23,401 nt of DNA from a virus, in the IMG/VR virus record IMGVR_UViG_3300048135_000527, positions 1 to 23,401 of that record; one strand, 5' to 3'. The notes beneath the pieces are model-generated. The model was not told where the DNA came from. It saw only the letters and a list, made by a program, of their open reading frames with translations, and did not search any database. The position numbers were made by a program, and so were the translations under genes. Shown in pieces: positions 511 to 23,385 of this stretch (its first letter is position 1; the number at the start of each line of letters is the position of its first letter).

Positions 511-962
511 GGCGCGTCGTCGATGCCTAAGTAATCGCCAGACCCAAGCCTGATTTGATGGCCCAAGACATCCATCAATGTTTTGCCCAGTAACCCCGTG
601 CTCCCGTACATAAATCGAGCATCCTGCACGGTGATTTCTTTTCTTGGTTCACCAGCAAAATCCAACATTCCCGTGGTGCCTGGTCTGACGCGGTTATCAA
701 GCGTTGTAGGCGAAACGCAGTACCCACTAAATTGATCGCCTTCGATGTCAATGCCTGGCATCTCACGGTCATTGACCAAGCCACGCCGCAGGAATAACTC
801 AACAGTGATCGTCTCGTTTACTGGCACGATGTTGCCCGTTTCTGGGTCTTCCATCACCTGATCTGTTGGCACTTCAAAAGCAACAACTGCGTTTTTTAGT
901 GTTGATAGTGCGCTTGCCACGTCTTCCCCTTGCTGGCCTAGTTTGCCGAAATCAGAGGGCAA
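507..962 (-). CDS. Probable head-closure / head-tail joining protein
   Basis: 151 residues. The first codon is TTG at 962-960; the first in-frame ATG would remove about 36 residues, so TTG is preferred, though no clear ribosome site precedes it. The protein is predicted mostly beta (VNETITVELFLRRG, EPRKEITVQDARFMYG) with a GSGDYLGID end. It lies immediately upstream of, and overlaps, the gp10-like gene, the usual position of a head-closure protein. Function is inferred from this pairing, not from a recognised motif. Only 23 bases separate it from the divergent tape measure gene, so promoters for either direction must lie inside coding sequence. Confidence 0.5.
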   Translation of the reverse strand: MPSDFGKLGQQGEDVASALSTLKNAVVAFEVPTDQVMEDPETGNIVPVNETITVELFLRRGLVNDREMPGIDIEGDQFSGYCVSPTTLDNRVRPGTTGMLDFAGEPRKEITVQDARFMYGSTGLLGKTLMDVLGHQIRLGSGDYLGIDDAP

Positions 963-985
963 GCTAGAAGAGCGACGTTGAGTCA

Positions 986-3783: not shown

Positions 3784-6700
3784 TGGCAACTATTGACTCC
3801 CGCGCAACTGTTACCTGCAGCTTGGGTGAAGTTATTTCTGGCGGCGTAAGTGACAGCTACCTGCAGGGCAGCGGGCTGGTGATGACTAAAGGCCAGTTGA
3901 CGTTGGTGGGTCTTAAGACGCCTGAAATTGGGTCGAGCGTCACCGTCAACTATCAGATGAACGGCGGGGGCTCTGGCCGCATTCCTCGTGACCTGCGGGT
4001 GTTGAGTGCCTTTGCTGACCCCTTGCGTGGCACGTCTGAGATTTCGCTCGGTTGCAGGCTGACCTATTTAGATGGCGTCATGCCGGTGCCTAGCTTGCAG
4101 GACGGGCGGGCGGCATACGTGAGCCCGCGCCAGCTTGAATGCCTAAATGGCTTGCCTAAGTCGGCATTCCCGCCACCAATCATGGCGGATGACTTATTTA
4201 GATATTGCCTGCAAAAACTAGGGATAGCCTGCACAGCTATTTTAAAAAACAGTTATGTGATGGACGAATATGACCTAAGTGGCGGATATGTTGCAGCAAT
4301 TGGAAATCTTCTTTTAAGCGAATCAAAAGTCGGCTACATCAATGAAACGGGCAATTTAAGCGTTATAAACCTTGATGAAATACCTAACGGGACAATCTCT
4401 ATAACTGTTGACGATGTTATCGACATATCGTCAATCAACAGTGGGGAACAGCCTGCAACGATTGCGATTGTCCCTTACATTGACAAAAAGCTAGAGAATT
4501 ACAACCCTGAAGAAGCAAAATGGGATGAGGTCGAAACTATCGGCAATCCACAATCAGTCACGATTAAATGGAGCGAAGGAAGTGAAATTATTTCACATAC
4601 CCCAAGCACCCGCACCGTTACTGAGTATGGAGAGCCCACCAAGTTAACTGATCAATGTGATTTATACGAAGGTGGTTATGGCGATCTTTCTAATACAGTC
4701 GTTAGGACAACAACTGAACGATCCACTGTATTAGGCCAATCATCAGGCGGATATGCAACAGCAGTTTATGAAGGCGGCTTTAACCCAGGCACAAGCCGTT
4801 CAGGCGTAATTACAGAAATTACAGAATATGAGTTTGATGCTAAAGACCGACCATCAAAGACCACACGATCAATTTATGAACCCATGTTTGTTTATGCCGG
4901 GCGCATGAGCCTGCCATGGGTCTTAGGTGAACAGGCTTTAATCCTTGGCAGTGAGCCGGTTCTTGTTGAACGCAGCATTGAGGAACATGATTACGCGGGA
5001 GAGATAGAAGTACCCACAGGGATTCGCCCCGGTGTTGACATGCCGGACATGGTCGTTCATCAACGCTCACACCGTTACACCTATCAGGCGTGGGGCAAGA
5101 CGCAAGGGGGAAGCCAAGCACCGGCCGAGTCAACCACTGTTGATGCTTTTGAAAGTGTTGATCAAGTTCAGTCTTATGTCAATCAATCGCTTGGCCTGAT
5201 TCTTACCAATTCAGAAGTAACAGCCAACAAGACGTTTAACCCCAAAGGTGACACGCGACCCGGCGAGGCTGACCGTGGGGCGCAGCAAGGAACACTGGAC
5301 AACGCAGGCAGAACAACCAAATATGTCGAGCTTCAATTCAGCAGCTTTGGGTCTGACCCTCGGGTCGTTCAGTATTCACCGCCGCATTTAACCGAGAGCT
5401 ATTTTTCGTCAGGCGGCATAGCGATTGACGTTGATTGCTACGCAGTATCTGCGGCATTTGGTCGGGCACAGCACGCGTTAACGATTGGCAACCGCTTGGG
5501 CGTCAACATCCAAACCACGCCAGACAAAGGCAATTTCTTTCCGTTTAGTGGTGTCAGCATCAATCTCAAGGGTTACTCCGGAAGGTTTGCGGCCAATAGC
5601 CTCAACTATTCGTTTGATGCCAACGGAATCCTTTGCAGCTTCGATGCGCTCTACATGGGCGCGGAAGGCAGTGCGCCCGGTGGCGGTAGCGGTGGGGAGA
5701 ATGCTTTAAGCCAACCCTGGTATTACCTGCCTTCTGGCTATGACCCGGACAACCTCCCTGAAAAGGACGACGGCCAGGTCATCAAGCCGTTTAATGAGAT
5801 CTCAAACGTGCAAGGTGGGATTGCTCTTGGCTTAAAGGCTTATGGGTCACAGGCGCAAGGTTTAATCCCGCAGACGGTAGAGCTAGGGGTCAAGATCGGC
5901 GTTGATGGAACTAACGCCACCATCGTTGAAATCGTCAACGTCGGGATTGCTGTTGGCGTTGATGGGTCAGCCAAAACAGGCGTTACAAACGAAGCATTGG
6001 TAGGGGTAAAGGTTGGCGTCAATGTGCAGCCAGATCTAAACACGATCAAATATCCAACGCCTGGGGTCAGGGTTGGTTTTCACCTTGGGCCTGATTCAAC
6101 GCTGCCATTGCTGTTGATGAGCTTTGACGACGGCCCAGACGATCCATGGAAAGATAAATCACCTAATGATTGGCAATTTGTAAACGTCAATGATTCGGCT
6201 TTTTGGAATGAGCCATTGCCTCCTGAATTTGAAGATACAACGTATGACCCGCGTTTTGGCCCTGGTAATGTAATGTTCAACGGCTCAAATCCAAACAATC
6301 CTGTAGATGGAAGCTGGATGGGTGGCCTGTTGTCATCTGGCACCGGGATGGAATTAGGAACCGGAGAATTCACAGTTGAGTTTTGGATGTTTAATGATGA
6401 CTACACTGTCCACAGCGATCAATCTCGGACTTATGTTTCAATAACGGGCCCTGCCGATACGGCCAGCGATGGATACGGCAGCTGGGGTTTTGGCACGAAA
6501 GGAGTTGGAACGTCTCAAGAAGAAAACGGATGCGTTTTATTCACGATGATCAAATGGAACAAAGCAGGCTCTTTTTATACCGATTATTTGTATGATGCAA
6601 GTTCAACTAAAGTGCCTGCTAATGAATGGGTACATGTTGCTTTTGTGAAAGTTTTGGGTGTCCCTGGCGCGGCGTATCCAAACAATTACAATCAAATTTA

Positions 6701-6926
6701 TATGTATATAAACGGCGTGCGAGTGCATACAGAAGTGTTTAGCTGGCAAGACATTGCGGACAATACTTTTGGTGGCGAACACTTGGCTTTGGGCTATAGA
6801 GTTGACGGCGACGGAAACGCTCGCTCCGGTTACGCTCAGTGGTGCATGATGGATGAAATACGAATAACAAAGGGAAAGGCAATCTATACTGAACCAAGCT
6901 TTTCACCGCCAACCGGGGCGTTCTAA
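3783..6926 (+). CDS. Tail hub / receptor-interacting protein with C-terminal LamG-like lectin domain
   Basis: 1047 residues. Residues about 1-620 resemble tail-hub proteins placed two genes after the tape measure, including a conserved-looking core (YLDGVMPVPS, then CLQKLGIACTAIL and a YINETGNLSVINLDE strand pair). A Gly/Ser linker (about 635-645) leads to five short repeats (680-770). Residues about 780-1047 look like a concanavalin A/LamG jelly roll: EFTVEFWMFND, ANEWVHVAFVKV, IYMYINGVRVH and MMDEIRITKGKAIY are typical strands, with the closing 'DEIRITKG-x-A-x-Y'. Such domains bind glycans and probably help the tail tip recognise the host surface. Parts of the gene near 4190-4900 and 6130-6900 are more AT-rich than their surroundings, suggesting domain exchange. 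Confidence 0.7.
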   Translation: MATIDSRATVTCSLGEVISGGVSDSYLQGSGLVMTKGQLTLVGLKTPEIGSSVTVNYQMNGGGSGRIPRDLRVLSAFADPLRGTSEISLGCRLTYLDGVMPVPSLQDGRAAYVSPRQLECLNGLPKSAFPPPIMADDLFRYCLQKLGIACTAILKNSYVMDEYDLSGGYVAAIGNLLLSESKVGYINETGNLSVINLDEIPNGTISITVDDVIDISSINSGEQPATIAIVPYIDKKLENYNPEEAKWDEVETIGNPQSVTIKWSEGSEIISHTPSTRTVTEYGEPTKLTDQCDLYEGGYGDLSNTVVRTTTERSTVLGQSSGGYATAVYEGGFNPGTSRSGVITEITEYEFDAKDRPSKTTRSIYEPMFVYAGRMSLPWVLGEQALILGSEPVLVERSIEEHDYAGEIEVPTGIRPGVDMPDMVVHQRSHRYTYQAWGKTQGGSQAPAESTTVDAFESVDQVQSYVNQSLGLILTNSEVTANKTFNPKGDTRPGEADRGAQQGTLDNAGRTTKYVELQFSSFGSDPRVVQYSPPHLTESYFSSGGIAIDVDCYAVSAAFGRAQHALTIGNRLGVNIQTTPDKGNFFPFSGVSINLKGYSGRFAANSLNYSFDANGILCSFDALYMGAEGSAPGGGSGGENALSQPWYYLPSGYDPDNLPEKDDGQVIKPFNEISNVQGGIALGLKAYGSQAQGLIPQTVELGVKIGVDGTNATIVEIVNVGIAVGVDGSAKTGVTNEALVGVKVGVNVQPDLNTIKYPTPGVRVGFHLGPDSTLPLLLMSFDDGPDDPWKDKSPNDWQFVNVNDSAFWNEPLPPEFEDTTYDPRFGPGNVMFNGSNPNNPVDGSWMGGLLSSGTGMELGTGEFTVEFWMFNDDYTVHSDQSRTYVSITGPADTASDGYGSWGFGTKGVGTSQEENGCVLFTMIKWNKAGSFYTDYLYDASSTKVPANEWVHVAFVKVLGVPGAAYPNNYNQIYMYINGVRVHTEVFSWQDIADNTFGGEHLALGYRVDGDGNARSGYAQWCMMDEIRITKGKAIYTEPSFSPPTGAF
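5820..6095 (+). repeat. Five in-frame ~20-residue beta repeats in the hub protein
   Basis: Within the hub gene, units begin near residues 680, 701, 720, 740 and 762: IALGLKAYG, LGVKIGVDG, VGIAVGVDG, VGVKVGVN and VRVGFHLGPD. The core is a hydrophobic-Gly alternation ending in Val-Asp-Gly. The period of 19-22 residues fits a stacked beta stalk carrying the LamG domain away from the hub. Confidence 0.75.
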
Positions 6927-7361
6927 ATGGCAATCACTACAGCAATTAGCACTGAAGAATTCAAGCGAATTGCACAGCTTGCCTATGAGGGTTTGCCTTG
7001 CACAGTCAGCCTGCACAACAACACAGCCAGCTTGACGGCTGAAAGCACTTTGGCGGAGTGGGACGCTGTAAAACTTCCCTCGTCTAACGGTTATGCAGAC
7101 TTCACGGTGGCAAGCCTTCCCGCAGGCGGTTTAGACCCTGGCTCTGATGACCGCTGGGAAATTGGCGGAACGGCTGGGGCTAATACATACGTTGAAGCCG
7201 CGTTTACCGCTGAAGGCGCAGGTTTTGCGTTCAACGCAGTTGTAATCCGCGTTGGGTCTGGTTTATACCCTCACTCAGTTCTTGTTGAAACGCCTTCCAT
7301 TACCGTTGCCGCAGGGCAAACACAGACATATCGCATCCAATTGTTGATCGACAACATTTGA
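6927..7361 (+). CDS. Hypothetical tail-region protein
   Basis: 144 residues. The ATG follows the hub stop directly with no gap. A short helical start (STEEFKRIAQLAYEG) is followed by a beta-rich body with many Ala, Gly and Thr, ending in a TYRIQLLIDNI strand. There is no signal peptide or membrane segment. Its place between the hub and another large tail gene points to a tail-tip or fibre accessory protein. I do not recognise a family. Confidence 0.6.
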   Translation: MAITTAISTEEFKRIAQLAYEGLPCTVSLHNNTASLTAESTLAEWDAVKLPSSNGYADFTVASLPAGGLDPGSDDRWEIGGTAGANTYVEAAFTAEGAGFAFNAVVIRVGSGLYPHSVLVETPSITVAAGQTQTYRIQLLIDNI

Positions 7362-7364
7362 TCA

Positions 7365-9392
7365 ATGAGCACTGAAATCACGGTTGTTGTCGGCGCTGAT
7401 AGCAACCTTCGGCGTGATGCTGCAACACGTACGGCACGTAGGCGCGACCGTCTGGACAGTGAAGCACTTAGGGATCAAGTCAAAGCAAAAGCGCAAGAGG
7501 AAGACAAGTCAAAAGGGTTCAACAATAAAAAGGATGAGTATGACCCCAGCCGTGACCCTGCTGCGCATGCCCGCAAAAAATCTGATGTAAGCGTTGGCGG
7601 TTTCACGACATGCAACATCAGGCAGCTTTATTACAAGGAAAGAAAGACGGAACTTACCACCGAAATTGGCAGTGTGGCATATAACTACAGTGGCGGAAAG
7701 TTTATGGATATATTCATTAAAGCGATTAAACCCGACGGCAATTATGGAAATGAGGTTGAAATCAATATCACTAGAAATCGTCTCGACCCTATGTTTTATG
7801 TGCCTCAGTCTGAGTTAGATGTAACTCTTTCAGACAAGCTTGGTTTGTTTATCGCATATCCTGTTGCAGGTAGATATTTAACCTGGCGAGACGCTCCATA
7901 TAGGAGTAACTACAGAGCGGGGCTTTTATACTCTTTAGCATATCAAGACGGCGCAACGCCTAACCCTTATAGATATTTTGGCTGGTATCCTTATTTTGGC
8001 CCTAATCAAAGTGATGATGTCGGGCGACCTAATAAATTTATTAAATTAGAGGATGGCACTTGGAGGGCTTACAGGGGATCTTCCGATAATGTTTACGACA
8101 ATATTCCAGATCAATATTTAACCGATGCGTCTGGTACTTTTGACCACTACATTGCGTTAGGCGAATTTTTTAGCAATGGCAGTGCAAACTATTATAGATA
8201 TAATTACAACCGCTATATGAGTTGTGGCGATGAAGACGACATCCAAAACGCTTTAGGCCGTCCAGGTTATGGCGACCCTGGCTATCAAATATACATGCTG
8301 CCATTAAATGAAAATCATTCTTATGTAGCCATTGTCTACACCGACGTTGAGATTTCATTTCGCGGCTTTGCTCACTATTACGGAACAATGGAAAGCCGTG
8401 TTGACGTTGAAGGCGAGCACCCTGACGCTGACTTGTTTTCCGGCTTTTACGCAGGCCTAGGCGGCACCAGACATTTAGAGCCACCTGAATATTTCTATCC
8501 GCCTTGTTTTGAAATTAACAGCTCTCAAACCCAACTTACGGATCAAGTTTTTAAGAAGATCCAGCAGGTCAAAATCGTTCAACTCAAAGATGGTGTTGCA
8601 ACGTTGATCCCTGACGATCAAATTCCTGCGTCCCTAAGACAATCGCTTGGTGTTGTAATGCCTTTAAACCCTGAAACAAAAGCCCCAATAGACTTTTATG
8701 ATACTTATTTTATGGGGTCAGGTAGAGATTATAGATGGCTTTGGTCATACGACCTTGATCTAGGCGCGATGACTTACAGCATCACAGCAACAGATGACAA
8801 CCAAGTTTATAAAGAGCCCGTCATAGATTGGTATGCATACAGGAATTTAGATTTTCATGGCATTAACTCTCAAGGGCGAAACGGCAGCGAATATCGAGAC
8901 GACAAAGCGCGTGATCGATCGCTAGCAAAGGGATATGGCTTTGGCTTTCTTGAAACCAGCAATCATTTTGATTCAATTTATGTTGAAAACTATGGTCAAC
9001 CGTTTAAAGCAGAAAGCACATATTTGGCAAACGATCCAATATTTACGCCTGCGATTTATTCTTACCTTGGCTTGGTTGCTAAGCCCTCAATTAATTATGA
9101 GGTGGCTGAATCAGGGTTACTGGGCATAAAGCCTGAAAGGTTTGTGTCTATTGATTTTGAAACCAAGCAAGTCTCGTCTGTGCAGCTTCCTGATTCTTTG
9201 AGCAGCATTGATGTTTTAAATCCGATTGACAGTTCACTGGTGTCTAAGCCGCAAGAGATCCCAATTTTTAGACGTGCCACTCATTACGCCTGGAACTGGG
9301 ACAACCCTGAGTTTTGCTGGCAGCGTTTGATTGATATGGGCTTTACGGCTGCCATGATTGGCCCCAAGCCAGAGAACCCAACTGATGAGTGA
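7365..9392 (+). CDS. Large Tyr-rich hypothetical tail-region protein
   Basis: 675 residues, starting three bases after the previous stop. Residues 1-75 are highly charged and likely helical (RRDAATRTARRRDRL, then Lys/Glu/Asp-rich). The remainder is beta-rich with unusually dense Tyr, Asp and Asn (for example RYFGWYPYFGPNQ and NYYRYNYNRYMSC). No domain is recognised. Location suggests a virion tail-tip or adhesion protein. The DNA is more AT-rich than the tape measure gene, so it may have been acquired separately. The last 8 bases overlap a small ORF. Confidence 0.6.
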   Translation: MSTEITVVVGADSNLRRDAATRTARRRDRLDSEALRDQVKAKAQEEDKSKGFNNKKDEYDPSRDPAAHARKKSDVSVGGFTTCNIRQLYYKERKTELTTEIGSVAYNYSGGKFMDIFIKAIKPDGNYGNEVEINITRNRLDPMFYVPQSELDVTLSDKLGLFIAYPVAGRYLTWRDAPYRSNYRAGLLYSLAYQDGATPNPYRYFGWYPYFGPNQSDDVGRPNKFIKLEDGTWRAYRGSSDNVYDNIPDQYLTDASGTFDHYIALGEFFSNGSANYYRYNYNRYMSCGDEDDIQNALGRPGYGDPGYQIYMLPLNENHSYVAIVYTDVEISFRGFAHYYGTMESRVDVEGEHPDADLFSGFYAGLGGTRHLEPPEYFYPPCFEINSSQTQLTDQVFKKIQQVKIVQLKDGVATLIPDDQIPASLRQSLGVVMPLNPETKAPIDFYDTYFMGSGRDYRWLWSYDLDLGAMTYSITATDDNQVYKEPVIDWYAYRNLDFHGINSQGRNGSEYRDDKARDRSLAKGYGFGFLETSNHFDSIYVENYGQPFKAESTYLANDPIFTPAIYSYLGLVAKPSINYEVAESGLLGIKPERFVSIDFETKQVSSVQLPDSLSSIDVLNPIDSSLVSKPQEIPIFRRATHYAWNWDNPEFCWQRLIDMGFTAAMIGPKPENPTDE

Positions 9393-11307: not shown

Positions 11308-11523
11308 ATGCCGCAACGCATCAAAATTCGGAATAGTTCGGAAATTGGGAAAGTCCCAGACGCAGCAGATTTAAACGTTGCCGAACTTGCGCTAAACGTT
11401 GCGGATAAAAAGCTTTATTCAAAAGACGTTGCGGGTGATGTCTTTGAAATTGGTGTAACTGATATTCCACCTTTGGATTTTGTACCTCTTGGTTCCTGGG
11501 CGTCTATCCCTGAGTTGCTCTGA
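11308..11523 (+). CDS. Small fibre-adaptor-like protein
   Basis: 71 residues. The segment VAELALNVADKKLYSKDVAG matches a pattern common at the N-termini of phage fibres and virion surface proteins ('ELALN-x-x-x-x-KLY-x-K'). Here it stands as a separate short ORF whose TGA overlaps the ATG of the fibre gene (TGATG). It may be an adaptor that docks the fibre, or an N-terminal fibre domain that became split off. No other domain is visible. Confidence 0.65.
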   Translation: MPQRIKIRNSSEIGKVPDAADLNVAELALNVADKKLYSKDVAGDVFEIGVTDIPPLDFVPLGSWASIPELL

Positions 11524-14500
11524 TGGCTGAACTACAAGACGCCGACAAGTTTTTGGTCAACCGCTCTAACAACACGAGACAACTAAGCAAGGACAAACTA
11601 ATGGCTGAATTGCGCGATGATGATTTGATGCTGGTCAACCGGGCCGGTGTTTCGTATAAAGCCACTGGCGCTGAGATCAAAGACTCGTTAAAGCCAGACG
11701 AGGAAGCTCCTGATATTAATGCGGTTGCATTAACTGAGATTGAAAACGGCTATCGCTACACCGACAAGGAGTTTCCATATACCGTTGACATGGCGGCTGA
11801 TGGTAACCCGCCCCCAACGTATGCCGTAAAAGCAAAGCTATCTGGGACGACGTTTAACTTTGCTGTTGAGTCAGATGCCATCACCAAAGTAGAAGGTGGT
11901 GGTACAAACGTTTATACAACTGACACGATTGCGAATGTAGAAGATGTAAATGAAGTTATAAACTATGCGAATAGCACCAGTATTCCCGTATTGCAATATG
12001 GTAAAACTGCCAACATATTTGATGGAGACTTGACCACCGGCGCAGGGAGACAGAGTGGGATGGGTGTTCAAATGACTAACCTACCTACGGCTAGAGAGTC
12101 AGTATCTTTCTACATATCTGCCGCTAGGTATCAAGTACAATGTATGGGTCAAATAAAATCAAATATTGTCGGAGCAAAGTGGACGACGTTTAATCTCTCG
12201 GGTCTAGTAAATAGAGTGGAAATAAACGCTACTGAATCTGGTGCGGTGATCGATCTGCGTGCCATCAAGATAGATGATGTTTTGTTGGTAGACGGGGTTT
12301 TTAATACAGGCGCTATCCTCACCTTCCCAACCTCCAACAACTTCGACAAGTTTGAAGTGGGTGATGTGGTTCAGTCCACTAAAACATTTAATGAATTTGA
12401 CTGGGCATCACTGGTTGAAGGACCACCAGCAAATGCTACCTATTCTCCTTCTAAATCCTTTGATAACAATACCGCAACTTTCTCTTTTGCCGATTTAAAT
12501 AGTTATCTAAAATTCGTACCGACACAATTTGGAAGTGCAAAATCAGTTAAGATCACGTACAAAATCGGGTCAACAGGTGGAGCCGCCGATGCTTCTTACC
12601 TGCGGGTAAATGGAGTGGATGTAAATGATGTCTTTGCAAATAACACTTTAATTGAGAAAACCATTGACGTGACAGGTGTTGGTCTTAATTCCATCGAATG
12701 GTACGCCACTAGCAGTTCTCTGTATTGCGGTGTCCAGAAGATAGAAGTAGACGGTAGAACTTTGGTTCAGCCAGGTACTGCTGGAGGAACAGGTGAAGAT
12801 TATTCAATCACCGCCATCGATGCAGACGGTCCAACCATCACAGTTGATGGGGGCGATTGGTATGTACCTCCTGGTAATAACTACACAGAAGGTGTTAGCG
12901 CAACTGCCCCATATAGTGATAACTTAGGACCTGAAAAGATTTTTGACGGCAGTACTAACACCGGATGTACGCTAAACGATGCTGGCGTAGCAAATCGAAT
13001 TACAATTGTTTTTGATCCTGGTATTCCCTATAGCAACAAGATTGAGACATCAAGGATTCACGGACCTTCTTCAACGGGTAATGTAAAATGCGCTGTTAAT
13101 GGTCAGACTGATGATTTAGCAACATTGGTTCCGTATAACGCCAATGGAAGTGTAAAAACACAGGTGGCTAGTGGTTTAGGTACTTTAACAAGACTTGAAT
13201 ACTTTAATTCAGGTCCTTCAAACCCAGCTGTATGTAGCATTTGGGTTGATGAAGTACTACTTGTGGACTCTATTGGCGATACAGAACTCACCAAGACCGT
13301 TGCTTATGAAACCAAGCTGACGGTTGCTAGCGACAAAGATTTAAGCCTCATCACTGGTGACATCTACATGACAGATGGCACCGTCAAGCAAGACGGCAGC
13401 GGTGAATTTGAACCTGCGTCTTACACGCCACAGACCAGTGAGATTGCGAGTGTTAGCGGAGAAATTTATAGCAACAGCCTTACGGCTAATGTCTCTTGGG
13501 GCAATCCACCCACTTCTGCATTTGATGGGAACATAGAAACTTACGCTAGTATCCCTCCAGGTGGACAGATAACATTTACATACAACTTAGGGACAACTGC
13601 AGGCGATTCAATCTTTTTCCGTTTCAATAAAGATAACGATAATGCCAACAGAGAGGTATCTTTTAATGGTGGATCTAACTGGTTGAAAGAACCAACAAGA
13701 GGTGGTGGAGTAACTTACGTTGCTACAGGAAATATAACTTCAGTTATATCAAGAGGTAGTTCACCAACATTTGGTTCAATTACTATTAATGGTGTTGAAC
13801 TTATTGACACCCCCACAACCCTCACCTTCACCACCCCTAACCCTGACCTTCAGTATTTTGAAGTGGGTGATGTGGTTCAGACAATAAAACCTGACACATT
13901 CGGGAGTGGAGCTTGGCTGATGAACGTAAGGAATCCTCCTAACAATAGTGAAGGTACACTTTCATTTTCCCCTGCTCCCACACCCTCGGACGGTAAGATT
14001 TGGGTCTACTTTGATCAAAATAATAGCTTAAATACAGAGTGGACAGTAACAGGCTCTGCGGGCACCCAAACTTTTAATAACACTGGTTGGATTAGAGAAA
14101 ATGGAACCCCGAGCGGCGCAGCCGGTATCGCGAAGGGGTGGCATTACTACCCATACTTAGGTCAAGTTCAAAGTATTAATTGTTTTGAAAACGCAAGCAA
14201 TCGTTCTGCATGGAGGTCAAAGGCGATTTCTTTTGGCTCAAATAACAGGAATGACGCTTTACAAGGTATTAGTATCACACCCCTTCCGTCTACACAAGTC
14301 CAAGAACCTATAACATTTACAGTACAAACAGTACAAGGTATTGAGGTTCAAATGTATTGCAGAGAATTTAGCACCAACGTAAACTTCTCACCTATCTACA
14401 TGTTCAACATGGAGGCGGATGGTACTGCTGATGTTGAATATGTAGAAATCATCGCCATTGACACAACCGCCAACACGATGACTGTTGATGGTGGTGAATG

Positions 14501-16808
14501 GCACGACAGCCGTGATCAAATTTGGTCTACTGAAGGAAGTTGGACTGGCGATGTTGTAGATAAAGAAGCTATGTTTAACGGTTTGGCAGGCGACCCAGCC
14601 GTGACCGGTACGCAGGCATATATAAATAATAGTGAATTTGTCTACACGTTTAACCCCCCAATTACCTCAATTCAAACATTAGAGATTGAGCTTTATACCT
14701 TTGGATCGACGTCTGGAAAGTCAAATCATTTTTATCAATACAACAGCGGCGGGTGGATAACAACAACGCCTAATAATGAATTAAGTAACCTTTTTGTCAC
14801 ACATTCCCACAGTGTCTCAACTCTGACGAACATTGGGTATAAAGTATCGGCTGTTGGTAATGGTGGAATTGCCAGAATTTGGGTTACATATACTAACGGC
14901 GATAGAAAATTATTGGTTGACAATTTTGGCGAATCAAGCGTTACCGGTGGACCCTATACAGCAGAAGGTACTTTCCTTGAAGCTAACGGCACAGAAGTAA
15001 ACCTCTCTGCTTCTTCCGGTCGTTGGATTGCTGATAACAAAGCAGGTATTCCCTTCAGCTTTGTGCCTGCAACGCCAATCGTTGACACCCGTAATGAGGC
15101 ATACGGCAAGCTCCAAATCGTGAACGATAAGGCCATGGTTACTGGCATTCAGGCTGATGATCCTGGCTTCACCAATGTGACCCGCAAGGATTATGGGATC
15201 ACGTTCCCTGCGGCCTTTGCAACTGGCAATAGCCCTGACGATGATTTGCCTATGGGCACATCGATATCAACGATTGTGCAGGCAAAGAACATGATGGGAG
15301 AGAGCATTAAAGAAAGCAATGTGTTGTTGCCTTCGTTGCCTAACCCTGAGGGTTCTGCCGGTCCTATTACAGGTGCAACAGAGACGGATCTGACGGTTGG
15401 AACATCAGCCAACCTTGATGGCTTTGTTGCTAACGATGCGTTGGTAATGGTTGATGAGACTGGAGCAGTCGCAAGCTACACGCCTGTTACCAGCACAATT
15501 GCGAGTGTTGATTCATCAACTGTTAACGCTACTGCCACCGCCGTTCCAGGGTTTGCATTACAAAATACTCCCGACACTTTTATAGATGGCAATAAAACAA
15601 GTTACTATAACGCTGCTGGTGTAAGAGTTAATTTTAGCTCGCCTGTTTCTGGAGTATTTAGCTTCACATCTGGAGGAGGGGCAACACCTACAAACACAAT
15701 GAGTTTGTACGATTCCAGCGACAATCTACTTGATAGTTTTGGTGGTGCAACTACTAGCGACTATGCAAACGGTATAACACTCACTGCTCTTTCAGCTATC
15801 AGCAATGTTTCTTATGTTGTTACCAGTACATCCGCCACAGGAGTTAGTTCCGATGGGTGTACTTGGCATTACATGGAATTAAATGGTCAAATGGTTGTTT
15901 CTACCTTTACCCCTGGAACAACCCTCACTTTCAACACCCCTAACCCTGACCTTCAGTACTTTGAAGTGGGTGATGTGGTTCAGGATGGTGGCTGGAATCA
16001 AAGTAAGGAGTGGAGCAATTTATTCAGTAGCCCTGCAGCTTTTACTCAAGCAAAAACAAATGCTTTTGATGGCGATACCTCATCGGCTGCTGATACAACG
16101 CAAGGGTGGACACTTGATACATCAAGCCACTCTTTTGGAGCTGGAACTCACTCGATTAAAGTCCTGTCTGGAGGCGCAACATCAATAACTGTAAATTCAA
16201 CTTCTTTGACAGACCCTGGAGGAAGTGGCGTTAAAACATGGACTGGAACTGTTAATGGAGAAATCAATACTATTTTCTCAAACGTAGGTAGCGCCTCATG
16301 CCGTGGTATTTACATTGACGACAAGCTCCTCGTAGACCAATCCGTCTCTAACCCAAACGCAGTATCAATCACCGCCATCGATACTTCTGCCAACACGATG
16401 ACCGTTGACGGCGGTTCTTGGGCTGGTGCTGATGGTAGTGGTGATGTAGACGGCGAAACAGTAGCTACCGGACCTGAGAAATCAGGTGTTGCAACCTTCG
16501 TTTCTACCAACGGCACCGACACGATGACCGTTGAAAACAGCAACCTGGAATTCATCACTAATGACAACCGCCTTGGCGAAGAGTTCTTTATTAAGAAAAT
16601 CTTCACCGCTTTGAATGCTAATGACCCGGCGCACGTTGAAATGCAGAAGGCTGTTAACGAAGCCTTTGAAGCATTCCCCAAAAACGTTCAGGCCAGAAAG
16701 ACTCAGATCGCCAAGACCTTCACCAAGCTGGTAGCTGGGGCAGCCATCACCAAGGCAGAACTAAACGCCCTGCGCGTAGTGGTTGAGGCCGCTGCTGAGG
16801 ATGACTAA
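11523..16808 (+). CDS. Giant modular tail fibre / adhesin-like protein
   Basis: 1761 residues. The N-terminus has two short repeats (LQDADKFLVNRSN and LRDDDLMLVNRAG), typical of cyanophage-type fibres. The body is a series of beta-sandwich-like modules. Several open with a FDG-x-x-x-T motif reminiscent of discoidin/CBM domains (FDGDLTT, FDGSTNT, FDGNIET, FDGDTSS) and close with IxIDxxLLVD (KIDDVLLVDG, WVDEVLLVDS, YIDDKLLVDQ). They are joined by two connector sequences, each present three times. The last ~70 residues are helical. The likely role is host-surface recognition. The module interiors are AT-rich and diverged while the connectors are conserved. The 3' end overlaps the convergent endolysin by 4 bases. 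Confidence 0.75.
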   Translation: MAELQDADKFLVNRSNNTRQLSKDKLMAELRDDDLMLVNRAGVSYKATGAEIKDSLKPDEEAPDINAVALTEIENGYRYTDKEFPYTVDMAADGNPPPTYAVKAKLSGTTFNFAVESDAITKVEGGGTNVYTTDTIANVEDVNEVINYANSTSIPVLQYGKTANIFDGDLTTGAGRQSGMGVQMTNLPTARESVSFYISAARYQVQCMGQIKSNIVGAKWTTFNLSGLVNRVEINATESGAVIDLRAIKIDDVLLVDGVFNTGAILTFPTSNNFDKFEVGDVVQSTKTFNEFDWASLVEGPPANATYSPSKSFDNNTATFSFADLNSYLKFVPTQFGSAKSVKITYKIGSTGGAADASYLRVNGVDVNDVFANNTLIEKTIDVTGVGLNSIEWYATSSSLYCGVQKIEVDGRTLVQPGTAGGTGEDYSITAIDADGPTITVDGGDWYVPPGNNYTEGVSATAPYSDNLGPEKIFDGSTNTGCTLNDAGVANRITIVFDPGIPYSNKIETSRIHGPSSTGNVKCAVNGQTDDLATLVPYNANGSVKTQVASGLGTLTRLEYFNSGPSNPAVCSIWVDEVLLVDSIGDTELTKTVAYETKLTVASDKDLSLITGDIYMTDGTVKQDGSGEFEPASYTPQTSEIASVSGEIYSNSLTANVSWGNPPTSAFDGNIETYASIPPGGQITFTYNLGTTAGDSIFFRFNKDNDNANREVSFNGGSNWLKEPTRGGGVTYVATGNITSVISRGSSPTFGSITINGVELIDTPTTLTFTTPNPDLQYFEVGDVVQTIKPDTFGSGAWLMNVRNPPNNSEGTLSFSPAPTPSDGKIWVYFDQNNSLNTEWTVTGSAGTQTFNNTGWIRENGTPSGAAGIAKGWHYYPYLGQVQSINCFENASNRSAWRSKAISFGSNNRNDALQGISITPLPSTQVQEPITFTVQTVQGIEVQMYCREFSTNVNFSPIYMFNMEADGTADVEYVEIIAIDTTANTMTVDGGEWHDSRDQIWSTEGSWTGDVVDKEAMFNGLAGDPAVTGTQAYINNSEFVYTFNPPITSIQTLEIELYTFGSTSGKSNHFYQYNSGGWITTTPNNELSNLFVTHSHSVSTLTNIGYKVSAVGNGGIARIWVTYTNGDRKLLVDNFGESSVTGGPYTAEGTFLEANGTEVNLSASSGRWIADNKAGIPFSFVPATPIVDTRNEAYGKLQIVNDKAMVTGIQADDPGFTNVTRKDYGITFPAAFATGNSPDDDLPMGTSISTIVQAKNMMGESIKESNVLLPSLPNPEGSAGPITGATETDLTVGTSANLDGFVANDALVMVDETGAVASYTPVTSTIASVDSSTVNATATAVPGFALQNTPDTFIDGNKTSYYNAAGVRVNFSSPVSGVFSFTSGGGATPTNTMSLYDSSDNLLDSFGGATTSDYANGITLTALSAISNVSYVVTSTSATGVSSDGCTWHYMELNGQMVVSTFTPGTTLTFNTPNPDLQYFEVGDVVQDGGWNQSKEWSNLFSSPAAFTQAKTNAFDGDTSSAADTTQGWTLDTSSHSFGAGTHSIKVLSGGATSITVNSTSLTDPGGSGVKTWTGTVNGEINTIFSNVGSASCRGIYIDDKLLVDQSVSNPNAVSITAIDTSANTMTVDGGSWAGADGSGDVDGETVATGPEKSGVATFVSTNGTDTMTVENSNLEFITNDNRLGEEFFIKKIFTALNANDPAHVEMQKAVNEAFEAFPKNVQARKTQIAKTFTKLVAGAAITKAELNALRVVVEAAAEDD
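12316..12374 (+). repeat. Fibre connector A, copy 1
   Basis: Encodes LTFPTSNNFDKFEVGDVVQ. This is the most diverged of the three A connectors; the 3' part (KFEVGDVVQ) is conserved in all. Confidence 0.8.
12804..12860 (+). repeat. Fibre connector B, copy 1
   Basis: Encodes SITAIDADGPTITVDGGDW, the first of three B connectors. It follows the second sandwich-like module. Confidence 0.8.
13416..13454 (+). repeat. Fibre module-boundary repeat, copy 1
   Basis: Encodes ASYTPQTSEIASV. The near-identical ASYTPVTSTIASV occurs at 15471-15509. Both precede an FDG-type module that ends in connector A. Confidence 0.75.
13818..13880 (+). repeat. Fibre connector A, copy 2
   Basis: Encodes a segment with NPDLQYFEVGDVVQ. 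By eye, 60 of 63 bases match the copy at 15921-15983, including third codon positions, suggesting recent duplication or recombination. Confidence 0.9.
14445..14501 (+). repeat. Fibre connector B, copy 2
   Basis: Encodes EIIAIDTTANTMTVDGGEW. It shares AIDxxANTMTVDGG with copy 3. Confidence 0.85.
15471..15509 (+). repeat. Fibre module-boundary repeat, copy 2
   Basis: Encodes ASYTPVTSTIASV, the partner of 13416-13454. It opens the third repeat super-unit of the fibre. Confidence 0.75.
15921..15983 (+). repeat. Fibre connector A, copy 3
   Basis: Differs from copy 2 at three of 63 bases, while the module upstream of each copy has diverged strongly. Confidence 0.9.
16364..16421 (+). repeat. Fibre connector B, copy 3
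   Basis: Encodes SITAIDTSANTMTVDGGSW. A decayed partial copy (TNGTDTMTVENSNLEF) follows at about 16507-16555. Confidence 0.85.
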
Positions 16809-18140: not shown

Positions 18141-19202
18141 ATGGGCAAAGCAAGCGTGAACGCCCAGCGCGGTCGCCTTTACCTGTTGGCCAAGCTGCCG
18201 AAGAGAAACGGCGATGGATGGACGCAGACGCGCATCCCCATGGGCCTGCCTGACACACCCGTCAACAGAAAGGTGGTTGATAAACGCCGGATCCTTCTGC
18301 AAAGGCAGATCGACAACGACACCTTTGAATGGAATTTCTGGGAAGACAACGAACACAAGGGAACGACCTGGAAGCAAGCGATTGAACAGCTCTATAAAAA
18401 ACGCGTGATCCTGGGTCGCACGGGTGAAAGCACCTGGCAGACCAACTACATGGGGCGTTTGCGTCAAGCCAACATGTCGAAGGTGGTGAACTCCCGCGAG
18501 GTCGCTGACTTTGTCAATCGCTGGCGGGTGGATCAGTGCTCTTACAAAGAGGCTTACTACCTTTGCCAAGACCTTTGCCGTCTGATCAACGTCCCGTTCC
18601 CTGAGGTCCCGCTCCCCAAATACAAGAAAGGGGCCCTGACCAACGTTCCGGAAGACTGGGAAATCATTGAGTGGATTGAGAAGGCTCAAACCTCCGAGAA
18701 GGAATTGGCGTGGGCCATGGGAATGATGGCCACCTATGGGTTGCGTGATCATGAGCTAGACGACTGCGAGTTCATTGATTTGAAGCACCGGCTCAAAGTG
18801 CCGGACGACACAAAAACAGGGTTCCGCGTTGTTGTCCCGCTTCACCGCGATTGGGTGGACTTGTTCGAGCTGCGCAGTGAACGCCGCAGAGTCAAGGTTT
18901 CAAAAGCCAAAGACGCAACAGCGCAGTGGCTTTATCACCGCCGACACAAGCTGGGTTTCCCTTACATCCCTTACTCATTGCGGCACGCTTATGCCGGTCG
19001 GTTGTGGCGTGTTGGCGGCTCAAACCTGGATGTTTTTACCGCTGCAAGGTTGATGGGGCATTCGGTCAAGGAACACGAACAGACCTATCGGGAGTGGATC
19101 CAACCCCACACCGTTGCAATCAGAGCTGAACAGGCTCTAGGGCTTGAGGCTGCAGCGGAATCCCTAGAGCATCAGGGCGGACGCGAATACAGCGATGCTT
19201 AG
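18141..19202 (+). CDS. int: Tyrosine-family phage integrase
   Basis: 353 residues; the ATG directly follows an in-frame TAG. The N-terminal half (about 1-165) is the arm- and core-binding part. The catalytic domain shows Arg202 (TYGLRDHEL), Lys225 (DDTKTGF), Arg281-His282 (YSLRHAYA), His307 (LMGHS) and nucleophile Tyr316 (EQTYREW). The box II His that normally precedes the Arg by three residues is Tyr278, a known tolerated variation in some families. It would catalyse attP x attB integration. A control region with phased repeats lies upstream, and an excisionase-like gene converges on its 3' end with an 83-base overlap. Confidence 0.93.
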   Translation: MGKASVNAQRGRLYLLAKLPKRNGDGWTQTRIPMGLPDTPVNRKVVDKRRILLQRQIDNDTFEWNFWEDNEHKGTTWKQAIEQLYKKRVILGRTGESTWQTNYMGRLRQANMSKVVNSREVADFVNRWRVDQCSYKEAYYLCQDLCRLINVPFPEVPLPKYKKGALTNVPEDWEIIEWIEKAQTSEKELAWAMGMMATYGLRDHELDDCEFIDLKHRLKVPDDTKTGFRVVVPLHRDWVDLFELRSERRRVKVSKAKDATAQWLYHRRHKLGFPYIPYSLRHAYAGRLWRVGGSNLDVFTAARLMGHSVKEHEQTYREWIQPHTVAIRAEQALGLEAAAESLEHQGGREYSDA

Positions 19203-20217: not shown

Positions 20218-20326
20218 AAAGGGCACCGTTGTCACCTCTGGCGTGCATTGTTGAAGTAGCCCTGGCCAAGAATTTGGTAGCTTGTAGGACATCGTCATCA
20301 GGGTGATAGGTCAAAGAAGGTTTCAT
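20123..20326 (-). CDS. Small hypothetical protein coupled to ERF
   Basis: 67 residues. Its ATG overlaps the ERF stop by 4 bases (20323-20326), which strongly supports translation. The product is mainly helical (DDVLQATKFLARATSTMHAR, then ALYGHYKAALALLLD). It is not recognised; position implies an accessory role in recombination. Confidence 0.55.
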   Translation of the reverse strand: MKPSLTYHPDDDVLQATKFLARATSTMHARGDNGALYGHYKAALALLLDPCQSEGSLFVKEPERVCN

Positions 20327-21027
20327 TTGTAGGAATAGATAAATTCTTGAGTAAAGACCAATTGATCTTTATTTAGAGCCTTGATCTGTGGTTTATCAGC
20401 CCCAAGTTTTGGGAACTGTCCTTTTAAGGCTTTGACCCAATCAACGGCGATGGCAGGCTTTTCGGCGTAAACGGCTTGCATTGCTGCAGAAACAGTTCCG
20501 CGAAGGTCTTGCAATTCACCGGCTGCATTGCTGGTGTCTGCATTGCTCTGCGCAGGCGGATTAGATGGAGGCTTAGGAGAACCTTGGGACTTTTTTGCGG
20601 ATGTGTCTGGCGGAAGAGTGGTTTCGCCCTCGTTTTCGCTGGTAGCCAAGCCAGCGATTGCAGCTAATAGGTAGCGGCGGGCGTAGCTGATGCCCGATCC
20701 ACGTTGTTGATGGCGGGCGTCCTTTTTGTTGTTGGGGTCGTAGTCATCGACATTCATGGACGACTCCAGGAAGCCGCCAGAAGCACAATGGAAAAGCCTG
20801 AGGACGACTTCTGTCTGGCCGGGCCTGCCATCGACTTCAGTGCCCAAGCCATGCATCGTGAAGGTGTGGCAAAGGCCTAATGCTTTGGCGGGACGAAGAG
20901 CATCGTTGATGGCTTCTTCTGATGCGTACTTGTAGCCGTAACCCTTGCTGTCTTTGAAGGCGGTGATGGTCTGTTGCTGAAACTTGCAGAGCGCAGTTAA
21001 TAGCTCTGGCGTGGGGTTGTCTGCCAT
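20323..21027 (-). CDS. erf: ERF-family single-strand annealing recombinase
   Basis: 234 residues from the ATG at 21027 (MADNPTPELL). A longer frame to 21129 would overlap the upstream gene by 76 bases and adds a Cys/Ser/His-rich stretch that does not look like protein. ERF signatures are GYGYKYAS (29-36) and QQRGSGISYARRYLLAAIAG (107-126). From about 140 the chain is a Pro/Ser/Asn-rich linker followed by a helical C-terminus. ERF proteins anneal complementary strands and support phage recombination and circularisation. An 18-bp motif overlaps the start codon, and a related near-palindrome lies 32 bases upstream in a possible promoter. Confidence 0.88.
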   Translation of the reverse strand: MADNPTPELLTALCKFQQQTITAFKDSKGYGYKYASEEAINDALRPAKALGLCHTFTMHGLGTEVDGRPGQTEVVLRLFHCASGGFLESSMNVDDYDPNNKKDARHQQRGSGISYARRYLLAAIAGLATSENEGETTLPPDTSAKKSQGSPKPPSNPPAQSNADTSNAAGELQDLRGTVSAAMQAVYAEKPAIAVDWVKALKGQFPKLGADKPQIKALNKDQLVFTQEFIYSYK

Positions 21028-21041
21028 ACGGCTGCGAGAGG
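21024..21041. promoter_or_regulatory. Operator-like 18-bp motif at ERF start (S3)
   Basis: CCATACGGCTGCGAGAGG, whose CAT is the ERF start codon on the leftward strand. It matches site S2 at 14 of 18 positions. Confidence 0.3.
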
Positions 21042-21050
21042 AACCCCTAC

Positions 21051-21079
21051 AACTTATCCCATGCGCTTGCGTATGGCAA
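21051..21079 (-). promoter_or_regulatory. Candidate ERF promoter with embedded operator S1
   Basis: Leftward reading gives a TTGCCA (-35-like, 21079-21074) and a GATAAG or TAAGTT (-10-like). Between them sits CCATGCGCTTGCGTATGG (21059-21076), a near-palindrome with CCATGCG/CGTATGG half-sites, so a repressor here would occlude polymerase. The -10 match is weak. Confidence 0.35.
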
Positions 21080-21935
21080 GTACGGAATGATACGGATGCG
21101 TGCGTAGGGATAACGCGTTCTGAGAACAAAAACGTCCCTCAGGGTCAAACCCAATGCGGCGCTGTGGTTCTGGTGTCAGGCCTGGCTCTTTTGGAAACCA
21201 TTTTGTTTGGTCCGCTGGCTCAGGCAATCGCCCGCGCCAGCTCAACAGCTTTTTTAATTCCGTGGTCTCACCTCCATACTGTTCCTGCACTGTCAGCAGT
21301 GCCATCAGAACAAAGGGCTTTTTGTACTTCACAAGGATCCTTGATGCTTCCTCAACGCTGGTTTCACGCAGGCCAGCAAGCATCTCCTGAACCCAGTCCA
21401 GTTCATCGCCTTCAATGCCTAGCTTGATCAACTCCTCTTTGAGTTCAATCCAAGCGGCAGCAGGCGGCGACATCATGACCAGCGACAGCTTGCGGAATGC
21501 GTCCCGGATTTGCTGTGTCCATTGGTCCACCATCTCTTGAGTCATCTGCTGTTCTGGCGGGAGGAGCAACTCAGCCGGGGCCTCAATCGCGCCTAGGTAA
21601 GCAGCGAAGAAATCAGACGCGGTCCACGGGACACCGTCGGGGTGGGTGATGGGTGAGCCACGTTTAAGCCGATCCATGAGGCGGCGATCTGTGACGCCGA
21701 CTAGGTCGCGTTCAGCAATGGCCTGGTTGAACTGACCAAGGCCACGAAAAAAGTTGGGCTTAGGCGTTAGCCGCCCAGACATGCAGATCGAGACCTGAGA
21801 GGCCCAGGGGCCGCAATCCCAGCCTTTGGCGCGGGCTAGACCTTCGCTAACTGACTGGGGCCACTCATTTCGGGCAAACCAGGCCTTAACGATGGGACCG
21901 AGGAGAGCAGAACAATCTTCGGTCATGGACCCCAT
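21054..21935 (-). CDS. HTH-containing protein, candidate phage repressor/regulator
   Basis: 293 residues. The segment about 30-72 (ASQVSICMSGRLTPKPNFF with flanking helices) fits an XRE/Cro-type HTH ('S-x-V-S ... G-x-x-x-P ... L'). Residues 90-293 are helical and end in a basic tail; no catalytic domain is recognised. Its start codon overlaps an 18-bp near-palindrome shared with the ERF promoter region, which suggests autoregulation and control of ERF. It sits between rusA and erf in one leftward operon. It could instead be a replication-initiation or structural DNA-binding protein; an M4 start at 21926 is possible. Confidence 0.5.
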   Translation of the reverse strand: MGSMTEDCSALLGPIVKAWFARNEWPQSVSEGLARAKGWDCGPWASQVSICMSGRLTPKPNFFRGLGQFNQAIAERDLVGVTDRRLMDRLKRGSPITHPDGVPWTASDFFAAYLGAIEAPAELLLPPEQQMTQEMVDQWTQQIRDAFRKLSLVMMSPPAAAWIELKEELIKLGIEGDELDWVQEMLAGLRETSVEEASRILVKYKKPFVLMALLTVQEQYGGETTELKKLLSWRGRLPEPADQTKWFPKEPGLTPEPQRRIGFDPEGRFCSQNALSLRTHPYHSVLAIRKRMG

Positions 21936-21950: not shown

Positions 21951-22448
21951 TTACCGGATTGGCGTGATACGCACAAGGGCGCCGGGGGTTTCATTTGCTT
22001 CTGCGTATCGCTTTGAACAGTTCAGCACGACCACCTGGCTGTCATCCATTAACACGCAACCGCCTGAGCGCCGCGCTAGGCCATCCAAAGTGCAACGGGC
22101 CAGTTTGTCGATGTCGCCGTGAAGCGAGCTGGTGCAATGGCTTGGCGCTGAATCTTTTAACTTTGTGCAATTCCTACCTGTGCCGTAATGACTTTTCGGT
22201 CTTGTAAAAAAGAAGGTTATTTCGACACATGCCGGGTCAATTATTGGCTCTGATTGATAATCATTCTCACACGTCCACATAACGGCCTGACGCCAGGGGC
22301 CAACTTTCTTGCTGCTTTCGCGCATGGACCCGTAGCGCGTCATTATTTTCGATCCCTGAGCGCCAGGAATGCCGCTGATCCGGAACTCAAGCGTCGAGGA
22401 ATTTTGGTCTGAGGTACTCGCTGACGTTCGGGGTTGCAGTGCCGTCAT
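21951..22448 (-). CDS. rusA: RusA-family Holliday junction resolvase
   Basis: 165 residues from the ATG at 22448, chosen because AGGAG lies five bases before it; an upstream start at 22496 lacks this. RusA features: ISGIPGAQGSK near the N-terminus, RPKSH (83-87), the metal-site region HGDIDKLARCTLDGLA (Asp112, Asp114, Lys115, Asp122) and VLMDDSQVV (Asp135/Asp136). The enzyme cuts four-way junctions as a metal-dependent dimer. It lies in the leftward recombination operon and its 5' end overlaps the preceding gene by 62 bases. Confidence 0.9.
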   Translation of the reverse strand: MTALQPRTSASTSDQNSSTLEFRISGIPGAQGSKIMTRYGSMRESSKKVGPWRQAVMWTCENDYQSEPIIDPACVEITFFFTRPKSHYGTGRNCTKLKDSAPSHCTSSLHGDIDKLARCTLDGLARRSGGCVLMDDSQVVVLNCSKRYAEANETPGALVRITPIR

Positions 22449-22782
22449 TTTTCTCCTGTTCGAATTGGGTTTGAAGTTGTTCTGAGAAATTTCCAATTGG
22501 CCAACTCTTCCGAGATGCCTTGCTAAACCTCACGCCTTTGAACTCATAGGTATCGCTCAGGTCGTCGTAGTGGCCCTCCAATAGCCCTTCCGAGTAGGCG
22601 TGCTTCAGAGATGCCTCGGCCTGTTTGAACTCAGCCTCTGCAGTTCGCTTGCGTTCGTAGGCGGCGGCGTACTGGCTAACGATCGTCTCGCTTTGATCGA
22701 GGGTCCGACCTGTCCACGGTCCTGCAGGAAAAGCAGAATTCGAGGTATGCGTTTTGGAGTTCTCGGTGGGTGCGGTAGTCAT
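22387..22782 (-). CDS. Hypothetical early protein between nuclease and rusA
   Basis: 131 residues from ATG 22782 (a TTG precedes it). The N-terminus is Ser/Thr-rich. Residues about 35-70 form a charged helix likely to coil (AAAYERKRTAEAEFKQAEAS), followed by a short beta part (TYEFKGVRFSKASRK). Small proteins of this type often sit beside phage nucleases and annealing proteins, but I recognise no family. No SD sequence is evident. Confidence 0.55.
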   Translation of the reverse strand: MTTAPTENSKTHTSNSAFPAGPWTGRTLDQSETIVSQYAAAYERKRTAEAEFKQAEASLKHAYSEGLLEGHYDDLSDTYEFKGVRFSKASRKSWPIGNFSEQLQTQFEQEKNDGTATPNVSEYLRPKFLDA

Positions 22783-22809: not shown

Positions 22810-23385
22810 TCAAAAGGGATTCGCTTCTGCGTAGGCGGAATACTTGTCCCAACAGTTTTCCCAGATTTCGAAGCATTCGTCCGGGTCCATTGGTGGCAGC
22901 CATTTCGTGGTGTTGGGGGTAACGATCAAGGTTCGGCATTCGTCGACCATGCAGCCGCCACGGGCGTCATTGCCATCAGATAACAAGTACAGGTAGCCAC
23001 CGGCCTGAGCCTTGTAGCTAGCAAAATCTTCTTTGCTAGGGCCCTTCCAGCTCGCAGACTTGGTCTTGAGGTCGACCAAGATCACCTTGTCTTTAAAAGC
23101 GCAGATCAAGTCGAGCTGGCCGCCCAAAGACTTGCGGCGGTGGACCATGGTGTACTCACACGCGATGGTCTGAGACTTCTCCCAGAAGTCCATCCGACCG
23201 ATCTGTTCGTACCAGTCCAGGCAGTCAATCCCTTCAGGGCTGACGTGATCGGGCAGCGGATCGCCGTTAGCGATGGCTTCCATGGCCCGGTGGACGTGCG
23301 TCCCTCGTGGGGCGGCCTCTGGATATTTGGAGTAATCAACCGGCGGCTTGCCGTAGTTGATCATTCCGGTGACGCTGATGGCCAT
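22810..23385 (-). CDS. PD-(D/E)XK nuclease (Cas4/RecB-like phage exonuclease)
   Basis: 191 residues visible. Motifs: GTHVHRAMEA with His32, GGQLDLI (Asp92), VILVDLKTK (Asp105-x-Lys107, the DxK signature) and a KAQAGGYLYLL helix supplying the conserved Gln/Tyr. This is the Cas4/AddB-type nuclease core. The frame stays open to the window edge, so the true start may lie beyond 23401; the ATG at 23385 is only the first visible one. It probably makes single-stranded ends for the ERF protein encoded downstream. Confidence 0.82.
   Translation of the reverse strand: MAISVTGMINYGKPPVDYSKYPEAAPRGTHVHRAMEAIANGDPLPDHVSPEGIDCLDWYEQIGRMDFWEKSQTIACEYTMVHRRKSLGGQLDLICAFKDKVILVDLKTKSASWKGPSKEDFASYKAQAGGYLYLLSDGNDARGGCMVDECRTLIVTPNTTKWLPPMDPDECFEIWENCWDKYSAYAEANPF

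Follow-up and report, generated by a model that had tools for sequence, protein, structure and literature searches.

A phage tail-fibre gene organised as a fixed frame of short connectors with replaceable domains between them

The window, 23,401 bases long, spans one entire IMG/VR virus record and derives from an uncultured aquatic bacteriophage. Its genes run from the tape-measure gene through LamG-containing tail genes to a tail fibre, an endolysin and a set of recombination genes. The fibre gene is flanked by tail genes on one side and by the endolysin, which is encoded on the other strand, on the other. Searches of the fibre against Pfam and PHROG assigned no family, and a sequence search for a solved structure found none. 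The fibre is a fixed frame of short connectors with domains, or cassettes, plugged between them. The complete frame in the window reads N-A1-B1-C1-A2-B2-(D)-C2-A3-B3, in which D is a backbone domain.

A full-length search with the fibre gave no match among the 50,697 phage records of INPHARED, and a rare-peptide pattern search in IMG/VR did not find the fibre. Relatives were recovered by connector patterns together with the neighbouring gene. They are metagenome contigs, two with most of the frame and several with part of it. G009 (IMGVR 3300048019_000095; loci L010, L022 and L051) is 85% identical to the window over the LamG tail protein, and G008 (3300046170_000340), G001 (3300035235_000053) and G020 (3300046170_000371) are more distant. 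Connector motifs also occur in two contigs of other virus types. One, L057, encodes baseplate wedge proteins of T4 type (phrog_219, E=1e-168; 52% to Synechococcus phages); the other, L058, has tail proteins of T7 type and a capsid with 89% identity to that of Krakvirus S39-C11. Most matches to the pattern FEVGDVVQ were unrelated proteins, the concatenated connectors and D domain had no match in cultured phages, a D-domain profile search of genome contigs found none, and a pattern for the DUF7483-type A connector gave no further contig. The fibre gene of the window contains the following features.

11523-16808, plus strand: tail-fibre gene, 1761 aa, a single open frame with the connector frame and its cassettes
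11889-11939, plus strand: connector N, VEGGGTNVYTTDTIANV, which closes the conserved N-terminal part
11940-12317, plus strand: cassette slot N-A1, 17-25% aa identity to the same slot in four relatives
12318-12374, plus strand: connector A1, LTFPTSNNFDKFEVGDVVQ, 95-98% nt identity to A1 of G009, G008a and G001
12375-12806, plus strand: cassette slot A1-B1, 16-22% aa identity to the same slot in relatives
12807-12860, plus strand: connector B1, 89% nt identity to B1 of G008a
12861-13316, plus strand: cassette slot B1-C1, 22-27% aa identity to relatives
13317-13454, plus strand: connector C1, LTVASDKDL...ASYTPQTSEIASV
13455-13820, plus strand: cassette slot C1-A2, 12-24% aa identity to relatives
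13821-13880, plus strand: connector A2, 93% nt identity to A2 of G009 and 95% to A3 of the window
13881-14447, plus strand: cassette slot A2-B2, 15-16% aa identity to G009 and G008a
14448-14501, plus strand: connector B2, 89% nt identity to G009 and G008a
14502-14933 (D boundary approximate), plus strand: cassette slot B2-D, with no match to G009 at the DNA level before about position 14939
14934-15389, plus strand: backbone domain D, about 78% nt identity to G009, not replaced between the window and relatives
15390-15509, plus strand: connector C2, 98% nt identity to G009, which holds the left edge (15396) of the exchanged tract
15396-15946, plus strand: exchanged tract of 551 nt with a single SNP relative to G009, starting in C2 and ending in A3
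15510-15923, plus strand: cassette slot C2-A3, recently shared with G009, 99.8% nt identity over 414 nt
15924-15983, plus strand: connector A3, a hybrid with its 5' part as in A3 of G009 and its 3' part of A1/A2 type
15984-16367, plus strand: cassette slot A3-B3, a predicted CBM32/F5-8C-like domain where G009 has DUF7483
16368-16421, plus strand: connector B3, a hybrid with its 5' part as in B1 of G008a and its 3' part as in B3 of G009
16422-16808, plus strand: conserved C-terminal tail, 98% nt identity to G009 up to the end of that contig

An earlier note on this DNA described a regular alternation of A and B connectors and a near-identity of A2 and A3, and both are confirmed at the positions above. 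Comparison of A2 with A3 gives 3 substitutions over 66 nt (13815-13880 against 15918-15983), two of them synonymous and one not, and identity falls to chance level within one codon at both edges. The best A2/A3-type match in each of 20 codon-shuffled fibre genes had 26-31 mismatches in 66 nt. A stretch of 24 nt, TTTGAAGTGGGTGATGTGGTTCAG, is common to A1, A2 and A3. B1 is 71-73% identical in nucleotides to B2 and B3, and so resembles them less than A2 resembles A3 (95%). The boundary repeat ASYTP-x-TS-x-IASV recurs as described, at 13416-13454 and 15471-15509, and is the end of the longer third connector, C. The alternation of A and B stands, but these two do not complete the frame, in which at least four types of connector can be told apart (N, A, B and C). 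Every gap, and not just that between A and B, holds a cassette. Most of the interiors are unrecognisable as diverged copies of one another and are alternative domains instead.

The order N-A1-B1-C1-A2-B2-D-C2-A3-B3 is identical in the window and G009. In G008, the frame is spread over two open frames and the frame start is present twice, while only parts of the frame are visible in G001 and G020. G009 and G008 have the same frame as the window with mostly different cassettes. Connectors in the same slot are mostly 88-98% identical in nucleotides between phages, and the less alike (73-76%) are B1 of the window and G009 and C2 of the window and G008b. Connector N is 94% identical to G009 and 92% to G008b, and C1 is 88% identical to G009 and G008a and 78% to G020. 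Exact runs between A1 of the window and A1 of its relatives are 35-41 nt long. The N-terminal part of the fibre is 98.6% identical to G009 over 425 nt, and the C-terminal tail shares 57% of its amino acids with G008 and G020. The fibre of G008 (L050, about 3660-3830, minus strand) has open frames of 1277 and 1347 codons that overlap in D, and this split is a frameshift, either in the phage or in the assembly. The fibre N-terminus of L025 (G020) and L009 (G008) contains an Ig-like insertion of about 80 aa (PLEITVV..PNPPLI..), which is absent from the window and G009.

Cassettes in the same slot are either 93-100% identical in amino acids or at most 45%, mostly 15-30%, and exchange gives such a bimodal pattern. 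The 93-100% pairs are the window and G009 in slot C2-A3, and G009 and G008a in slot A2-B2, where the latter two have one 95% identical cassette. The gap from B2 to C2 is an exception at 55%, because it includes backbone D. Slot A3-B3 is 384 nt long in the window (predicted to be CBM32-like) against 939 nt in G009 (DUF7483). Natural empty slots were also found. The gap between A and B is just 4 aa in G021, and that between B and C is 24 aa in G008b against about 150-165 in others. Judging by these empty slots, cassettes are insertions and the frame can stand without them. The cassette-less G021 further suggests that A and B may be halves of one small unit, in which their strands might pair in a single small barrel. 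According to the earlier note, a fixed module order and connectors evolving like the interiors would speak against exchange; in the related fibre genes the opposite was found, with the connector order fixed, the cassettes replaced wholesale and the connectors conserved better than the backbone, silent sites included.

None of the window cassettes reaches any Pfam family by sequence, and the Pfam CBM32 and F5-8 type C families have no sequence match on the fibre. An AlphaFold2 model of A3, its cassette and B3 had a mean pLDDT of 85 (16-sequence alignment). This model matched discoidin-like beta-sandwich folds (CBM32, F5/8C, HSPC034) with VIA-align Z scores of 6.5-8.8 over about 97-110 aligned residues, and nearly all of the top rows had a discoidin-like fold. 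The matches cover residues 27-139, which correspond to the cassette and not to the connectors. Foldseek matches of the model were weak (E >= 0.003), and the top-ranking viral model was that of a 'putative lectin' from phage S39-C11 (E=4e-8). Fold similarity at this level (Z<9) is no demonstration of sugar binding. Glycan binding is common among CBM32-like domains. On the basis of the model, it is plausible that the cassettes bind receptors or cell-surface glycans. The A3-B3 cassette of G009 is DUF7483 (E=6e-59). This family (PF24299, cut-off 27) scored 200 bits in L022, 258 bits in L058 and 617 bits in L025, and it has no match within the window fibre. A structure model of DUF7483 gave no convincing fold match, which is not a sign of a new fold.

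The phages S39-C11, S37-C6, S-B68, RB11-B, CRP-811 and C72C1 have one of the two cassette families or both, frequently in tandem, and no connectors were seen in them when they were looked for. The presence of cassette families in annotated marine phages without connectors indicates that the cassettes circulate more widely than the frame does. S39-C11 (L064, AP013549) is the closest annotated relative of L058. Its fibre N-terminus resembles that of the window, and its fibre contains many tandem CBM32-like cassettes without A, B or C connectors.

The borders of recent replacement were located by aligning the window with G009. Across 450 positions of backbone D (14950-15399) there are 102 mismatches, and the nearly identical exchanged tract begins at 15396. 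Identity breaks up from 15947, inside A3, beyond which the cassettes are unrelated, and 98% identity is back at 16391, inside B3, and continues to the end of the G009 contig. All three junctions fall within the connectors C2, A3 and B3, in agreement with the earlier suggestion of module exchange bounded by connectors. About 66 nt upstream of and into B3 of the window match B1 of G008a and the end of its upstream cassette, while the 3' part of B3 and the DNA downstream match B3 of G009. The 3' part of A3 is an A1/A2-type core, followed by the cassette start WNQSKEWS, which is seen in the first slots of G008, G009 and G001. The simplest reading of these alignments is that crossovers inside A and B brought a first-slot-type cassette into the third slot.

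Other parts of the genome also differ from G009. The tape-measure region (window 986-3019 against L022 1902-3938) lacks a DNA match and has flanks that are about 80% identical on both sides. The tape-measure proteins of both phages are 677-678 aa long and end in IQNALS; judging from the DNA, the gene appears to be replaced by one of the same length. The protein of 675 aa encoded downstream of LamG differs from G009 in its middle (window 7801-8904) and has conserved ends, so that the middle is either replaced or fast-evolving. L021 (IMGVR_UViG_3300048446_000470) is a 10 kb contig with 100% identity to window positions 1-9307, and it ends short of the fibre gene.

Conservation of the connectors at the DNA level was assessed at silent sites, using codons for the same residue in the window and G009 and connectors outside the recent tract. 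Identical codons were found at 97 of 114 connector positions, against 66 of 123 in D (p=1.5e-7), 517 of 854 in the LamG protein (p=8e-8) and 182 of 351 in gp675 (p=8e-11). Like the shared frame, the cassette replacement, the connector junctions and the hybrids, this extra silent-site conservation is visible in the aligned sequences themselves. At silent codons, gp186 and the N-terminal segment of the fibre likewise reach 97-99% identity with G009, and the silent conservation could partly come from a recent spread of whole blocks or fibre segments. Exact runs are 24-41 nt or longer for most same-slot connector pairs, 21-28 nt between connectors of different slots, and typically 8-11 nt between cassettes. 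The B core is identical over 27 nt between B3 of the window and the T4-like contig L057, and over 26 nt between B2 of the window and the T7-like contig L058. By codon usage alone, each of these identical cores has a chance of about 1e-4 to 6e-4. GC3 is 0.52 in the connectors and 0.34 in the cassettes (p=6e-7), with 0.41-0.60 in the other genes of the phage; these values are consistent with a separate source of the cassettes.

The window encodes three putative recombination functions on the minus strand.

20323-21129, minus strand: putative Erf-type single-strand annealing recombinase (PF04404 2.3e-11, 44.4 bits against a curated cut-off of 25; phrog_155 2.8e-20)
21951-22496, minus strand: RusA-like Holliday-junction resolvase (PF05866 2.8e-11; phrog_140 3.8e-23)
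22810-23385, minus strand: PD-(D/E)XK exonuclease (PF12705 2.3e-6; phrog_298 3.7e-13)

In a published assay, the Erf/exonuclease pair of phage D3 was as efficient as lambda Red, diverged DNA included, and the minimal pairing segment of Red-beta is quoted as 23-27 bp (PMC3945230). Because the connectors are identical over lengths of this pairing size and the window encodes Erf, exonuclease and RusA, we infer that exchange takes place by phage homologous recombination. The preferred reading, with a probability of about 0.77, is that the fibre is a multi-slot receptor-binding display scaffold diversified by homologous recombination at its connectors. In this mechanism, N, A, B, C and backbone D would form the fixed frame, and the gaps would carry domains of about 110-330 aa. 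Related phages, including those of different tail types, would trade single domains during co-infection. Connectors would pair through 21-41 nt of exact identity adjoining the cassette, and a crossover in both connectors flanking a slot would replace the cassette in frame and leave the frame intact. The slot-specific connector halves (NNFDKF in A1 against PNPDLQYF in A2 and A3) would tend to preserve the order, and transfer between slots would be permitted by the common halves (TTTGAAGTGGGTGATGTGGTTCAG in A and the ANTMTVDGG end of B). The phage's own Erf, exonuclease and RusA probably perform the exchange, and selection for host range presumably drives it. A bolder proposal, offered tentatively and rather doubtful at present, is that the connectors are DNA addresses kept at the nucleotide level, through which unrelated siphovirus-like, T7-like and T4-like aquatic phages share a pool of receptor-binding domains; the slot-specific halves would maintain the frame order, and the common halves would let a cassette change slots or a slot stay empty. 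If so, the fibre would be the phage counterpart of a cassette array, using homologous recombination instead of an integrase.

Selection for foldable, in-frame products would also put surviving junctions in linkers. The main rival to recombination at connectors is that the connectors are conserved purely as protein and that domains are exchanged by illegitimate joining, with selection for joins that are in frame and lie at domain boundaries; the DNA of the connectors would then have no role. The connectors are indeed conserved in protein as well, cassette edges match domain edges, and in G021 A and B directly neighbour each other with no cassette between, as the two halves of a small unit would. 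Junctions in linkers are expected under illegitimate joining, whereas silent conservation and hybrids that align at homologous positions are not, and it is less favoured. Silent sites are better conserved in the connectors than in the adjacent backbone, and the junctions of the hybrid connectors lie inside aligned homologous positions. Independent codon strings for the A and B cores would agree with a probability of about 1e-3 to 1e-4, yet several lineages agree. Overall, this protein-level explanation is unlikely. A chimeric metagenome assembly, in which fibre alleles were joined at shared short repeats, is very unlikely, even though G001, G009, L057 and L058 all end within the fibre, as strain variation causes contigs to do. 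The exact connector repeats are mostly 21-41 nt, and assemblers usually use words longer than this. Moreover, the frame recurs in contigs of several datasets, and all 1761 codons of the window fibre lie in one open frame.

The 95% DNA identity of A2 and A3 and the doubled frame start in G008 are what a tandem duplication of one long module would leave, if the A2/A3 and C copies arose in this way and the interiors then diverged fast. Against this, A1 is 95-98% identical across phages and 75-79% identical to A2 and A3 within the window, and the interiors are sometimes of different folds. Since the connectors are slot-specific across phages and the interiors unalignable across slots, recent internal duplication was rejected as the cause, and the odds of it are very remote. 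A dedicated diversifying element acting on the connectors, either a diversity-generating retroelement or an invertase or other site-specific recombinase, is hardly credible. Variable segments flanked by repeats and a tyrosine-recombinase-like gene in the window would suit such an element. However, no reverse transcriptase was found among the scanned proteins of the window, which is an incomplete contig, no strong inverted repeats of the kind found in Mu/P1-type invertible fibre segments were seen in the fibre or at its connectors (the best long pairs are 71-78% complementary), and the junctions vary among C2, A3 and B3 with no one fixed site. The recombinase-like gene (18141-19202) has a weak Arm-DNA-bind_2 match and, by eye, a C-terminus of R..H..R..Y type. 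It likely encodes a tyrosine recombinase, and given this gene the phage may be temperate.

Recombination at connectors addresses an old question, namely how a phage fibre can stay intact while its host specificity changes. The sequence itself shows the unit of exchange (one domain), its boundaries (connectors of 24-60 nt), recent events and a plausible set of enzymes, and the trading of receptor-binding domains at built-in homology is thereby directly testable. Connector DNA is also a handle for finding domain pools common to several virus families.

Several known systems resemble this fibre in part. In the T-even adhesin gp38, as summarised from Tetart et al. 1998 in PMC12529663 and PMC10408124, glycine-rich motifs alternate with hypervariable segments, and the segments are swapped through recombination between motifs. 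The window connectors are likewise short and conserved, alternate with variable segments and hold the exchange junctions. However, no homology to gp38 was found, the connectors (LTF..FEVGDVVQ and ITAID..TMTVDGG) are not polyglycine, and the window fibre does not belong to the gp38 family. Whole domains of 110-330 aa with different folds are swapped in eight slots, whereas gp38 swaps short loops, and the exchange partners of the window fibre include other tail types. In E. coli phage tailspikes, conserved motifs of 20-95 bp flank receptor-binding domains and were proposed as cross-genus recombination hotspots (PMC10408124). Both systems place short conserved DNA around exchanged receptor-binding domains, but the tailspike motifs lie upstream and downstream of the domain, while the window connectors lie within one gene and bound many internal domains. 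The window fibre additionally shows hybrid connectors and conservation at silent sites. Alteromonas phages have fibre parts common to siphoviruses, podoviruses and myoviruses, as seen here across tail types, but these are whole fibre/chaperone modules instead of single domains within a frame (PMC10579305). Recent domain exchange in fibres is described for phage receptor-binding proteins (PMC10684548), and fibre genes are variable islands in the metaviromic islands of marine phages (PMC3909814). In the passages considered from these two papers, exchange is described by domain, without DNA boundaries of the kind found in the window. The Rad52-like phage recombinases, which include Erf of D3 (PMC3945230), have counterparts in the putative Erf, the exonuclease and RusA of the window, and the connector lengths fit the reported pairing segments. 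Compared with these known systems, the distinguishing elements are the many slots per gene, whole domains as units, slot-to-slot transfer, empty slots and connector DNA that occurs across tail types.
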